Shown here: piece by piece, positions 16,793 to 20,612 of the stretch
Layout: every line of letters starts with the position of its first letter
How positions within the stretch are numbered: the first letter of the stretch is position 1
Notes under the pieces: model-generated
The model's input: only the letters and a program-made list of their open reading frames with translations
Told to the model about the DNA's origin: nothing
The model's database searches: none
Assembly (NCBI GenBank): GCA_003246675.1
Contig: QJZQ01000237.1
Location: 1-32,188 of the forward strand
DNA from: Nitrospirota bacterium
GTDB lineage: Bacteria; Nitrospinota; Nitrospinia; Nitrospinales; VA-1
Reading direction: 5' to 3'
Length of the DNA stretch: 32,188 nucleotides
Program-made: the position numbers and the translations under genes

Positions 16793-17136
16793 TGCGCTTC
16801 AAACGATCGCAGCGAATTCAGGAACTGTTGCTCGAGGAGATTTCCGCCCTCATCCAGCAGGGGATCAAGGACCCGAGGATCGGCTTCGCCACTCTGACCA
16901 AGGTGGAGGTGACCGACAACCTTAAGCATGCCAGGGTCTTCGTCAGCATTCTGGGCACCGAAGAAGAGAAGCAACAGACCCTGGAGGGGTTGAAAAGCGC
17001 GCGTGGGTTCATCCGCGGCGCCCTGGGGAAGAAACTGTACCTGCGGTACATCCCCGAACTGGAATTCAGGCGCGATGACAACGCCGAACACGTCGAAAGA
17101 ATAACCAAGATTCTCAATGAGTTACACCCAGGATAG
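16789..17136 (+). CDS. rbfA: Ribosome-binding factor A
   Basis: MMRFKRSQRIQELLLEEISALIQQGIKDPRIGFATLTKVEVTDNLKHARVFVSIL; ATGA overlap with upstream gene. Confidence 0.93.
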   Translation: MMRFKRSQRIQELLLEEISALIQQGIKDPRIGFATLTKVEVTDNLKHARVFVSILGTEEEKQQTLEGLKSARGFIRGALGKKLYLRYIPELEFRRDDNAEHVERITKILNELHPG

Positions 17137-18058
17137 CATCGTCAATTTATTGAAGCCCCAGGGGCTCACGTCGTTCCAGGTGGTGGACCGGGTGAAAGCT
17201 ATCCTCAAGGCCAAGAAGGCGGGCCACATCGGAACCCTGGACCCGATGGCCGAAGGCGTGCTGCCGATTTGCCTCAACCGGGCGACGCGGATTATCCAGT
17301 TTCTGTCTCCCCTGAGCAAGGTTTACCGGGCCGAAATGGAGCTCGGCACGGCCACCGATACCCAGGACGCCACGGGGAAAGTGATCGAACAGGGGGAGGC
17401 CGGAGGGGTGAGCGCGGAGGCCGCGCAGGCGGTGGTGGAAAGCTTCCTGGGAGAGCAGCTTCAGGTGCCGCCGATGTTTTCGGCGAAGAAGAAAAAAGGA
17501 ATTCCTCTTTACAAATTGGCCAGAAATGGTATTACTATCGAGAGGAAGCCCGTCTCCATTCGCGTTTATCGCATTGATTTCCTGCGAAAGTCGGGGGACC
17601 GGGTGGAATTTGAGGTGGAGTGCTCCGCAGGCACCTATGTCAGGACTCTGTGCCATGATATGGGCCGCCAGTTGGGGTGCGGTGCCCACATGACCCGGCT
17701 GACGAGAACCCGGGTAGGCATGTTCGATCTGGAGAACGGCCTGACCCTGGAAGATCTCGTTGCCGCCGTCGGCGATGGCAGCCTGCCCCAGAAGCTTATC
17801 CCCCAGGAACGTGCCCTCGATTTTCTTCCAGAAATTCGGGTCAAGAAGGATTTTGTCAGTTCCCTGGCCCATGGGCAGGCGCTTTCGAAATCATCCCTGG
17901 AAACGTTTCCGTGCAAGTTCGAGCCGGGGATGGAGCTTAGGGTCATGAATGGTGGCGATCACCTGCTGGCGGTGGTGGAGCCGGTGGTGAATGAAGAGGG
18001 GTTCAAGGAGCTGGAGCCGGGAGACACTGCGTTTAAACTAAAACGTGTGCTGGTTTAA
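17117..18058 (+). CDS. truB: tRNA pseudouridine(55) synthase TruB
   Basis: LLKPQGLTSFQVVDRVKAIL, KKAGHIGTLDPMAEGVLPICLNRATR; 20-bp overlap with rbfA. Confidence 0.95.
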   Translation: MSYTQDSIVNLLKPQGLTSFQVVDRVKAILKAKKAGHIGTLDPMAEGVLPICLNRATRIIQFLSPLSKVYRAEMELGTATDTQDATGKVIEQGEAGGVSAEAAQAVVESFLGEQLQVPPMFSAKKKKGIPLYKLARNGITIERKPVSIRVYRIDFLRKSGDRVEFEVECSAGTYVRTLCHDMGRQLGCGAHMTRLTRTRVGMFDLENGLTLEDLVAAVGDGSLPQKLIPQERALDFLPEIRVKKDFVSSLAHGQALSKSSLETFPCKFEPGMELRVMNGGDHLLAVVEPVVNEEGFKELEPGDTAFKLKRVLV

Positions 18059-18079
18059 ATAAATAATATGAGCAATGCC

Positions 18080-18205
18080 AACCGCAGGAAGATTGGAATG
18101 TTTTCGCAGAGGAGTTCCGCCGGAGCCGGTTTCAGGACGGCGTGGCCGGGAACACGGAATTCCTCTGCGAAAACATTTGCCAGTCGTCCTTCGGTGGTTT
18201 TTTTT
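18080..18205 (+). promoter_or_regulatory. Long imperfect hairpin plus T-tract between truB and rpsO; candidate rpsO leader regulator or attenuator
   Basis: AATGTTTTCGCAGAGGAGTTCCG (18097-18119) pairs with CGGAATTCCTCTGCGAAAACATT (18155-18177), one G-U; pairing extends outward with bulges to 18080/18199 and ends in T8 (18198-18205). Confidence 0.8.
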
Positions 18206-18225
18206 AATCGAGGGGAGGAGTAATC

Positions 18226-18495
18226 ATGGCTCTGAAGAAGGAAGAAAAAGTTTCAATCATTTCGGTTCACAAAAAGCATGAAACAGATACCGGTTCCTCC
18301 GAGGTGCAGATCGCTCTTTTGACCAAGAGGATCGTCGACCTGACGGAGCATTTCAAAACCCACGCCAAGGATCACCATTCCCGGCGTGGTCTGCTCATGC
18401 TTGTCAGCCAAAGGCGCAAGCTGCTGGATCATCTGAAGGCGGAAGATGCTGGCCGGTACCAAAACATCATCGCGCAACTCGGCATAAGGCGATAA
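18226..18495 (+). CDS. rpsO: 30S ribosomal protein S15
   Basis: [71 protein letters not shown]. Confidence 0.97.
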
Positions 18496-18515: not shown

Positions 18516-20612
18516 ATGGAAAAAGTTGAGATAGAAATTGACGGGAAGACAATATCCATAGAATCGGGAACCCTGGCCAAGCAGGCCGGCGGTTCGGTAG
18601 TGGTGCGGCAGGGGGACACGATGGTCCTCGTGGCGGCGACCATGGCCAAGAAACCCAGGGAAGAGGTGGACTTCTTCCCGCTGACAGTTGACTACAGGGA
18701 AAAAACCTACGCTGCCGGGAAGATCCCCGGCAGTTTTTTCAGGCGTGAAGCGCGGCCGGGCGAACTCGAGACCCTGGTCTGCCGCCTGATCGACCGGCCC
18801 ATCCGGCCGCTGTTTCCCGATGGCTTCAGAAACGAGACGCAGGTCATCTGCCTCGTGGTATCCCACGACCAGGTGAACCCGGCTGATGTCGTCGCTATCA
18901 CAGGCGCATCGGCATCGCTCCTCGTTTCCGACATCCCGTTTCACAACCCCATCGCCGGAGCGCGCGTGGGCCGGGTGAATGGAGAATTCGTCTTCAACCC
19001 CACCTACGATGAATCGAAGGAGAGCGACCTGAACCTCGTGATGGCCGGCACCAAAGACGGCATCGTTATGGTCGAGGCGGGTGCGAAAGAGGTCAGCGAG
19101 GATGAAATGATGGACGCGCTCGCCTTCGGGCACGAGCGGATCAAGAAATTGATCGAGATTCAGGAAGAATTGCGCCGGCGGCTCGGCAAGGAAAAGGTTG
19201 CCTTGGCCGAAGCCAATGTCGACGAAGCTCTTGGCACGCGCGTGAAAGAACTGGTGGCCGCGAAGGTCGAAGCCGCCATGCAGATCGCCGGTAAGCAGGA
19301 ACGGTCCGATGAGATGCAGGCGATCAAGGAAACCCTCGCCCAGGAACTCAACTCCGAGGGCGACGATGGGGTCAAGAAGCAACTGGGAGAATTTCTCCAC
19401 GACATCGAGAAGGAAGCGGTTCGCCGGCTCATCCTGGAGAAGAAAACCCGCATCGACGGCCGCGGGCTCACCGACATCCGCCCCATCAGCATCCAGGTCG
19501 GCTACCTGGCGAGGAGCCACGGTTCCTCTGTTTTCACTCGTGGTGAAACGCAGGCGCTGGTGGCCGCTACTTTGGGCACGGGCATGGATGAGCAGCGGAT
19601 GGACAGCCTGGAGTTCAAGGGCTCGAAGTCGTTCATGCTGCATTACAACTTCCCGGCTTTTTGTACCGGCGAAGTCAAGTTTCTCGCCGGCCCCGGGCGG
19701 CGGGAAATCGGCCACGGCATGCTCGCCGAGCGGTCGCTTATTCCCGTTTTGCCGGAGAAGGAAAGCTTTCCTTACACCATTCGCCTGGTTTCCGAAATTC
19801 TTGAATCCAACGGGTCGTCCTCCATGGCCTCGGTGTGCGGCGGTTCGCTGGCACTGATGGATGCGGGCGTTCCGATCAAGGAGCCGGTGGCGGGCATCGC
19901 CATGGGGCTCATCAAGGAAGGCGATCAAATCGCCATCCTGTCCGACATCCTGGGCAGCGAGGACCACCTGGGCGATATGGACTTCAAGGTGGCCGGCACC
20001 CGTAACGGCATCACCGCGTTGCAGATGGACATCAAGATCGGCGGGCTGGACAAGGCGCTCATGGCCACCGCCCTCGGTCAGGCCCGCGAAGGGCGCCTGC
20101 ACATTCTTGGCGAGATGGCCAAGGTGCTGGAAGTGCCGCGTGAGACGATGTCCAAATACGCTCCGCGTATCGTCACCATCCGGATTCCCAAAGACAAGAT
20201 CCGCGACGTTATCGGACCGGGCGGCAAGGTCATTCGCGGAATCATCGAGAAGACCGGTGTCACCATCGATATCAACGATGACGGCATGGTGTCCATCGCC
20301 TCCACCGACGAGGCCGCGGCCAAAGCCGCGATCGATTACGTCCAGAGCCTGGTGCAGGAAGTCGAGATCGGCCGAATTTACCTTGGCACGGTTAAGAAGG
20401 TCGTCGATTTCGGCGCCTTCGTCGAAATTCTTCCCGGCACCGATGGCCTCGTGCACATCTCGCAGATCTGCGAGCGGCGTATCAAGAGTGTCAGCGATGA
20501 AATCCAGGAAGGCGACGAGATCAAAGTCAAGGTGATCGACGTTGATTCCCAGGGCAAAGTGAAGTTGAGCCGCAAAGAAGCCCTGCGCGAAGAGGCGACA
20601 GCTACGAAGTAA
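18516..20612 (+). CDS. pnp: Polyribonucleotide nucleotidyltransferase (PNPase)
   Basis: RREARPGELETLVCRLIDRPIRPLFP, KH domain IGPGGKVIRGIIEKTGVTIDI, C-terminal S1 domain. Confidence 0.97.
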   Translation: MEKVEIEIDGKTISIESGTLAKQAGGSVVVRQGDTMVLVAATMAKKPREEVDFFPLTVDYREKTYAAGKIPGSFFRREARPGELETLVCRLIDRPIRPLFPDGFRNETQVICLVVSHDQVNPADVVAITGASASLLVSDIPFHNPIAGARVGRVNGEFVFNPTYDESKESDLNLVMAGTKDGIVMVEAGAKEVSEDEMMDALAFGHERIKKLIEIQEELRRRLGKEKVALAEANVDEALGTRVKELVAAKVEAAMQIAGKQERSDEMQAIKETLAQELNSEGDDGVKKQLGEFLHDIEKEAVRRLILEKKTRIDGRGLTDIRPISIQVGYLARSHGSSVFTRGETQALVAATLGTGMDEQRMDSLEFKGSKSFMLHYNFPAFCTGEVKFLAGPGRREIGHGMLAERSLIPVLPEKESFPYTIRLVSEILESNGSSSMASVCGGSLALMDAGVPIKEPVAGIAMGLIKEGDQIAILSDILGSEDHLGDMDFKVAGTRNGITALQMDIKIGGLDKALMATALGQAREGRLHILGEMAKVLEVPRETMSKYAPRIVTIRIPKDKIRDVIGPGGKVIRGIIEKTGVTIDINDDGMVSIASTDEAAAKAAIDYVQSLVQEVEIGRIYLGTVKKVVDFGAFVEILPGTDGLVHISQICERRIKSVSDEIQEGDEIKVKVIDVDSQGKVKLSRKEALREEATATK

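Follow-up and report, generated by a model that had tools for sequence, protein, structure and literature searches.

A conserved hairpin in the truB-rpsO gap of Nitrospinales, read as a new leader RNA family of rpsO-pnp

The gap between truB and rpsO in the DNA analysed here (the window, a stretch of 32,188 nt from a member of the Nitrospinales) houses a long imperfect hairpin that, on the evidence of comparison between genomes, is a single-copy RNA structure conserved order-wide. We read this hairpin as a new family of rpsO-pnp leader RNAs that would control translation. A preliminary description of the window had proposed an rpsO leader of unrecognised form. This part of the proposal stands, the hairpin being single-copy, covarying and outside Rfam, whereas the transcription attenuation proposed along with it does not hold as a general function. 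No paper describing the element was found in a search of open-access journal papers, and searches for Nitrospina RNA motifs gave nothing.

Locus and anatomy of the hairpin

The gene order in the window, with names given by product recognition, is presumably infB, a short ORF, rbfA, truB, rpsO and pnp; the names S15 and PNPase are additionally backed by homology searches. All the features described below lie on the plus strand. The upstream gene truB (17117–18058), placed from the ORF list and from the truB-rpsO gaps of relatives, is separated by 167 nt from rpsO (18226–18495), which encodes ribosomal protein S15 (89 aa) and is followed, starting 20 nt past its end, by pnp (18516–20612), encoding polynucleotide phosphorylase; both were assigned from their ORFs and by homology search. 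Among named genomes, the best matches of the window S15 are Nitrospinaceae records, with 93% identity to that of CP070799. The ribosome-binding region of rpsO, AATCGAGGGGAGGAG, was placed at 18206–18220 from the sequence and from duplex calculation. That of pnp reads (A)TTGGAGA in most genomes (rpsO-pnp gaps of most Nitrospinaceae loci), and the CCAAT strand of the hairpin could therefore pair with the pnp start too.

The hairpin that had been claimed at 18080–18205 is present there and is far from chance (shuffle z -6.65): its folding energy is -77 kcal/mol, against -50.9 +/- 3.9 kcal/mol for dinucleotide shuffles, none of which, out of 200, folds as low. Most of the pairing described initially was recovered, namely an arm pair at 18097–18119/18155–18177 (23 nt, 96% complementary, one G-U, 35 nt in between), a 2-nt bulge (18178–18179) followed by 6 bp (18091–18096/18180–18185), a single A-G mismatch (18090/18186) followed by 4 bp (18086–18089/18187–18190), and a T8 tract at 18198–18205. 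Only the outermost part differs, as the fold gives a 1x1 mismatch, 3 bp, a bulged A and 4 bp instead of a 3-nt bulge and about 6 bp.

Judged from the alignment of relatives, the element consists of a near-invariant core, a 3'-strand bulge of 2 nt at a fixed position, a basal stem that covaries and an apex that is free to vary. The two strands of the core, AATGTTTTCGCAG (18097–18109) and CTGCGAAAACATT (18165–18177), were delimited from the alignment, and the latter begins with CTACG in many relatives, which creates a C-A mismatch. The bulge that follows has variable letters. Below it, GATTGG (18091–18096; fold and alignment), which is GRTTGR in most relatives, faces CCAGTC (18180–18185; fold and covariation), while the outer part of the basal stem, whose 5' strand spans 18077–18090 in the MFE fold, consists of species-specific pairs with the one mismatch at 18090; in the alignment, column pairs 6–11 of this outer part covary and have 9–21 of 47 cells unpaired. 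The apex (18110–18164 in the alignment) comprises 10 further pairs and then a loop or branch that varies among relatives, in which the apex measures 20–121 nt. The duplex, made of the 13-bp core, 10 pairs above it and at least 6 below the bulge, thus amounts to two helical turns or more. The commonest form of the element is GRTTGR-AATGTTTTCGCAG-apex-CTRCGAAAACATT-NN-YCAAYC, with a consensus near-invariant core of 13 bp, AAUGUUUUCGCAG/CUrCGAAAACAUU.

Conservation and covariation in Nitrospinales

A covariance model finds the element in 56 of the 65 Nitrospinales genomes, with one match per genome and always in the truB-rpsO gap, and in none of the 13 Nitrospinota genomes of other orders (56/78 Nitrospinota overall). 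It occurs in families f1, f2 and f4. Among the nine Nitrospinales genomes without a match, four have no rpsO-pnp in their assembly and two have an rpsO that is truncated at a contig end or was recovered only in part, so that a readable gap lacks the element in three genomes only: G038 (gap of 57 nt), G052 (19 nt) and G016. The rpsO and pnp of G016 (L063, G016:C92), a genome placed in genus g5, are far from those of its congeners (46% and 63% identity, respectively), and its contig is possibly misbinned or its operon replaced. In the gap of G038 (L022), the Shine-Dalgarno (SD) sequence is immediately preceded by a short hairpin of another kind, ATGCGGAA/TTCCGTAT, perhaps the element in reduced form or a structure that has replaced it. 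Outside Nitrospinota, the element is absent from about 69 S15 loci. In a more strictly filtered search, where absence is weak evidence, none of 198 genomes from the phylum of G078 matched, and of 198 from the phylum of G080 a single one matched, weakly and at two places (E 0.0015), in stretches that show no convincing homology to S15.

Compensatory changes, which the preliminary description had proposed to look for in the truB-rpsO gaps of relatives, are present. In an alignment of 47 distinct sequences, both-sided changes affect 20 of the 31 pairs scored, and 87% of the cells are paired, compared with 42–53% when the structure is slid by 1–3 columns; as the alignment of genera g10 and g14 is imperfect (bulge shortened or shifted by one pair), the paired percentage is underestimated there. 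None of 500 shuffles reaches any of five covariation measures, and RNAalifold, unaided, recovers most of the core and of the apical stem with 9 compensatory pairs. Furthermore, a model whose training set was limited to families f2 and f4 detects the window copy (E 1.7e-13) as well as copies of other f1 genera, and has no match in the three element-free gaps. The basal stem exchanges A-U for G-C at columns 14/107 and G-C for A-U at columns 18/103. Within the core, five pairs never or almost never vary, and its end carries a C-A mismatch in 24 sequences and C-G in 16. The apex of G026 (L003) is enlarged to 121 nt with extra stems, core, bulge and basal stem being retained, which indicates that the apex tolerates large insertions.

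This distribution also bears on the main alternative put forward initially, a mobile palindrome of the MITE/REPIN type, and on a palindrome acting at the DNA level. The strong inverted repeat is what such an element would display. However, BLAST in the 2.7-Mb host genome returned no dispersed copies, the sole strong matches being the locus and its own reverse complement, and exact copies of the 13-nt core lie only in the two arms, matches with at most one mismatch being otherwise at background level. The palindrome is thus single-copy and occupies one orthologous site in 56 genomes; its strands show compensatory changes, its apex varies widely in length, and the RNA model scores 73.8 bits on the plus strand against 48.7 bits on the minus strand. 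The MITE/REPIN reading was therefore rejected, and the probability left to any palindrome of this kind is negligible.

A further reading makes the hairpin a terminator in the truB-rpsO gap or a transcription attenuator, the latter being among the initial proposals. In the window, T8 directly follows the stem foot, and the sister species has T5AT3 there; these two aligned sequences represent genus g1, and no other genus has a T-run of at least 6 nt at the foot. Outside g1, the T-runs after the core measure 1–5 nt or, like the T5–T6 runs of g14, lie past the SD, and the conserved features sit in the core, not in the foot. Attenuation would thus be at most a local addition in g1, a conserved terminator is rejected outside this genus, and we hold it very improbable that the element as such is an attenuator. 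A terminator pattern scan found none here, its 8-nt loop limit excluding a hairpin of this kind.

A second partner for the basal 3' strand

In most genera, the segment that follows the core is complementary to the SD region of rpsO. In the window, this anti-SD segment, GTCGTCCTTCGGTG (18183–18196), delimited by the predicted duplex and by complementarity tests, overlaps the basal 3' strand and is predicted to pair with AATCGAGGGGAGGA (18206–18219) at -13.7 kcal/mol. Other examples are CCAATCGTTT with AACGAGTTGGA in g8, ATTCTCTTAA with TTAAGAGGAA in g6 and ATCCTTTCT with AGGAAAGGAT in g2. When one representative per genus was compared with dinucleotide-shuffled segments, the complementarity exceeded chance over 14 genera (Fisher median p 0.0018, 5–95% range 0.0002–0.010), the 3' part of the apex, taken as control segment, giving p 0.89. 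The effect goes clearly in the same direction in 10 of the 14 genera; it is not seen in g7 and g4 and is neutral in g9 and g10. A stricter test, in which partners were exchanged between genera, gave p 0.06; as SDs are purine-rich everywhere, composition explains part of the complementarity.

On average, the SD of the full leader has a computed openness of 0.50; removing the 5' strand lowers it to 0.19, against 0.32 with shuffled 3' segments. Since the basal 3' strand is complementary to the SD, the closed hairpin should expose the RBS and loss of the 5' strand should hide it. By these calculations, the proposed SD switch is supported but not proven.

A two-state leader and its possible triggers

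The reading that we favour, with about even confidence, is that of a lineage-specific cis-regulatory leader RNA of rpsO-pnp that would exert post-transcriptional, two-state control of the rpsO RBS. A short distance upstream of the rpsO SD lies a conserved, covarying long helix, invariant in its core and with a bulge at a fixed position, and by computation its basal 3' strand has two alternative partners, the 5' strand of the hairpin itself and the SD. As long as the hairpin stays closed, the SD would be free and S15 and PNPase would be made; with the 5' strand lost, the freed 3' strand would cover the SD and expression would fall. As the 5' strand, the core, the 3' strand and the SD are synthesized in this order, the closed hairpin with an open SD would be the default, and closing the SD would require loss or displacement of the 5' strand.

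If RNase III cut the long core duplex and PNPase, which is encoded in the same operon, then removed the 5' strand, the SD could be closed by a feedback like that of E. coli pnp. We consider such processing the most likely trigger, although at somewhat less than even confidence, and rank it first on three grounds. Of 8 genomes tested, the host among them, 7 encode RNase III; the exception, G052, is only 72% complete and also lacks the element. The rpsO-pnp gaps of element-bearing genomes (19–59 nt) contain at most short hairpins, which makes the truB-rpsO hairpin the sole long duplex in the two gaps flanking rpsO. Finally, the literature documents control of pnp by RNase III in several phyla (PMC8708148, PMC10126417), and a short RNA protecting the pnp mRNA of E. 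coli is digested by PNPase (PMC10362022). Short hairpins in the longer rpsO-pnp gaps (L008–L021, L042–L064) are of the CCTGAATTCTCAGG type in g8, CCTAATT..TTAGG in g5 and ATCCTGCCTATAGGAT in g14; in other genera, the gaps measure about 20–26 nt and have no such hairpins.

In E. coli and Streptomyces, RNase III cuts in the rpsO-pnp gap (PMC10126417, PMC8708148). Their hairpin, like the present one, is a long imperfect duplex in an rpsO-pnp transcript with pnp downstream, and both enzymes are present there as in Nitrospinales. However, the Nitrospinales element sits on the opposite side of rpsO, in the upstream gap to truB instead of the rpsO-pnp gap, its cleavage is putative, and it combines an order-wide, nearly sequence-invariant core with SD complementarity. 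An almost invariant 13-bp core is more than RNase III alone would need and suggests a protein that reads the sequence. It is also conceivable, if rather unlikely, that the element exemplifies a new autoregulatory class, in which one strand of a duplex is both the partner of a 5' strand removable by RNase III/PNPase and the rpsO anti-SD; if so, PNPase activity would set the translation of S15 and of PNPase itself via an RNA-strand-removal switch.

Binding of S15 is the nearest rival and the second-ranked trigger of the two-state leader, a possibility we hold more doubtful than processing. An autogenous leader in which S15 binds the bulged core and blocks translation of rpsO (and pnp) seems similarly doubtful. 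The element lies directly upstream of rpsO in every genome examined, its invariant core and fixed bulge resemble a protein site, and known S15 leaders are structurally diverse (PMC4137082, PMC7247131), at least six other rpsO leaders of unrelated structure offering a precedent; the known types comprise the E. coli pseudoknot (RF00114) and those of Geobacillus, Thermus, Rhizobium, Actinobacteria, Chlamydia, Flavobacteria and archaea. Like these, the element is a conserved structured RNA 5' of rpsO and near or over its RBS. However, validated S15 leaders mimic an rRNA three-way junction or a GU/GC step (PMC4684408, PMC7247131), whereas the conserved part here is a single unbranched, bulged helix with a variable apex (47 sequences), with no conserved three-way junction or pseudoknot, and no single position carries a GU/GC step in more than 20 of the 47 sequences; the window lacks the step at the position in question. 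Furthermore, S15 bound to the closed hairpin would shift the balance towards the form with an open SD, contrary to what repression needs unless the protein blocked the ribosome sterically. Even without the known recognition features, S15 may be the ligand. Mimicry was judged against published features only, since the genomes searched yielded no usable 16S: the single-contig genome G001 (L192, G001:C1:1445000-1447200) gave only a 16S fragment (model positions 109–308) with a run of 100 N nearby, and in five other genomes none that is usable was found.

Rfam 15 has no family at gathering score in the window. The E. coli-type S15 leader (RF00114) scores 22.7 bits there, for a cut-off of 39.5, and covers the SD and the start of rpsO; as L060, a relative without the hairpin, scores 24.6, this signal reflects coding homology. 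Matches to miRNA models were dismissed as generic hairpins. Single bulged hairpins are candidate r-leaders for L31 and for S4 of Bacteroidia/Flavobacteria (PMC7247131), which adds to the case for an S15 leader. Like the Nitrospinales element, they are one bulged hairpin with conserved letters, found in one lineage only and without obvious rRNA mimicry, but they belong to another gene and phylum, and the element described here has a long, nearly invariant core helix. The invariance of the core beyond the needs of pairing, illustrated by the five almost fixed pairs, would also suit recognition by another RNA-binding protein, or an element that serves stability or processing and does not switch the SD. 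This would, however, leave the above-chance SD complementarity unexplained, and we regard it as distinctly unlikely.

Significance

The hairpin appears to represent a so far undescribed family of structured RNAs that is retained almost throughout Nitrospinales, the order to which the marine nitrite oxidiser Nitrospina belongs. As the two-state rpsO-pnp leader that we favour, it would add a further independent solution to the bacterial control of rpsO, and it possibly joins S15 control to PNPase/RNase III feedback, which in E. coli depend on separate elements flanking rpsO.
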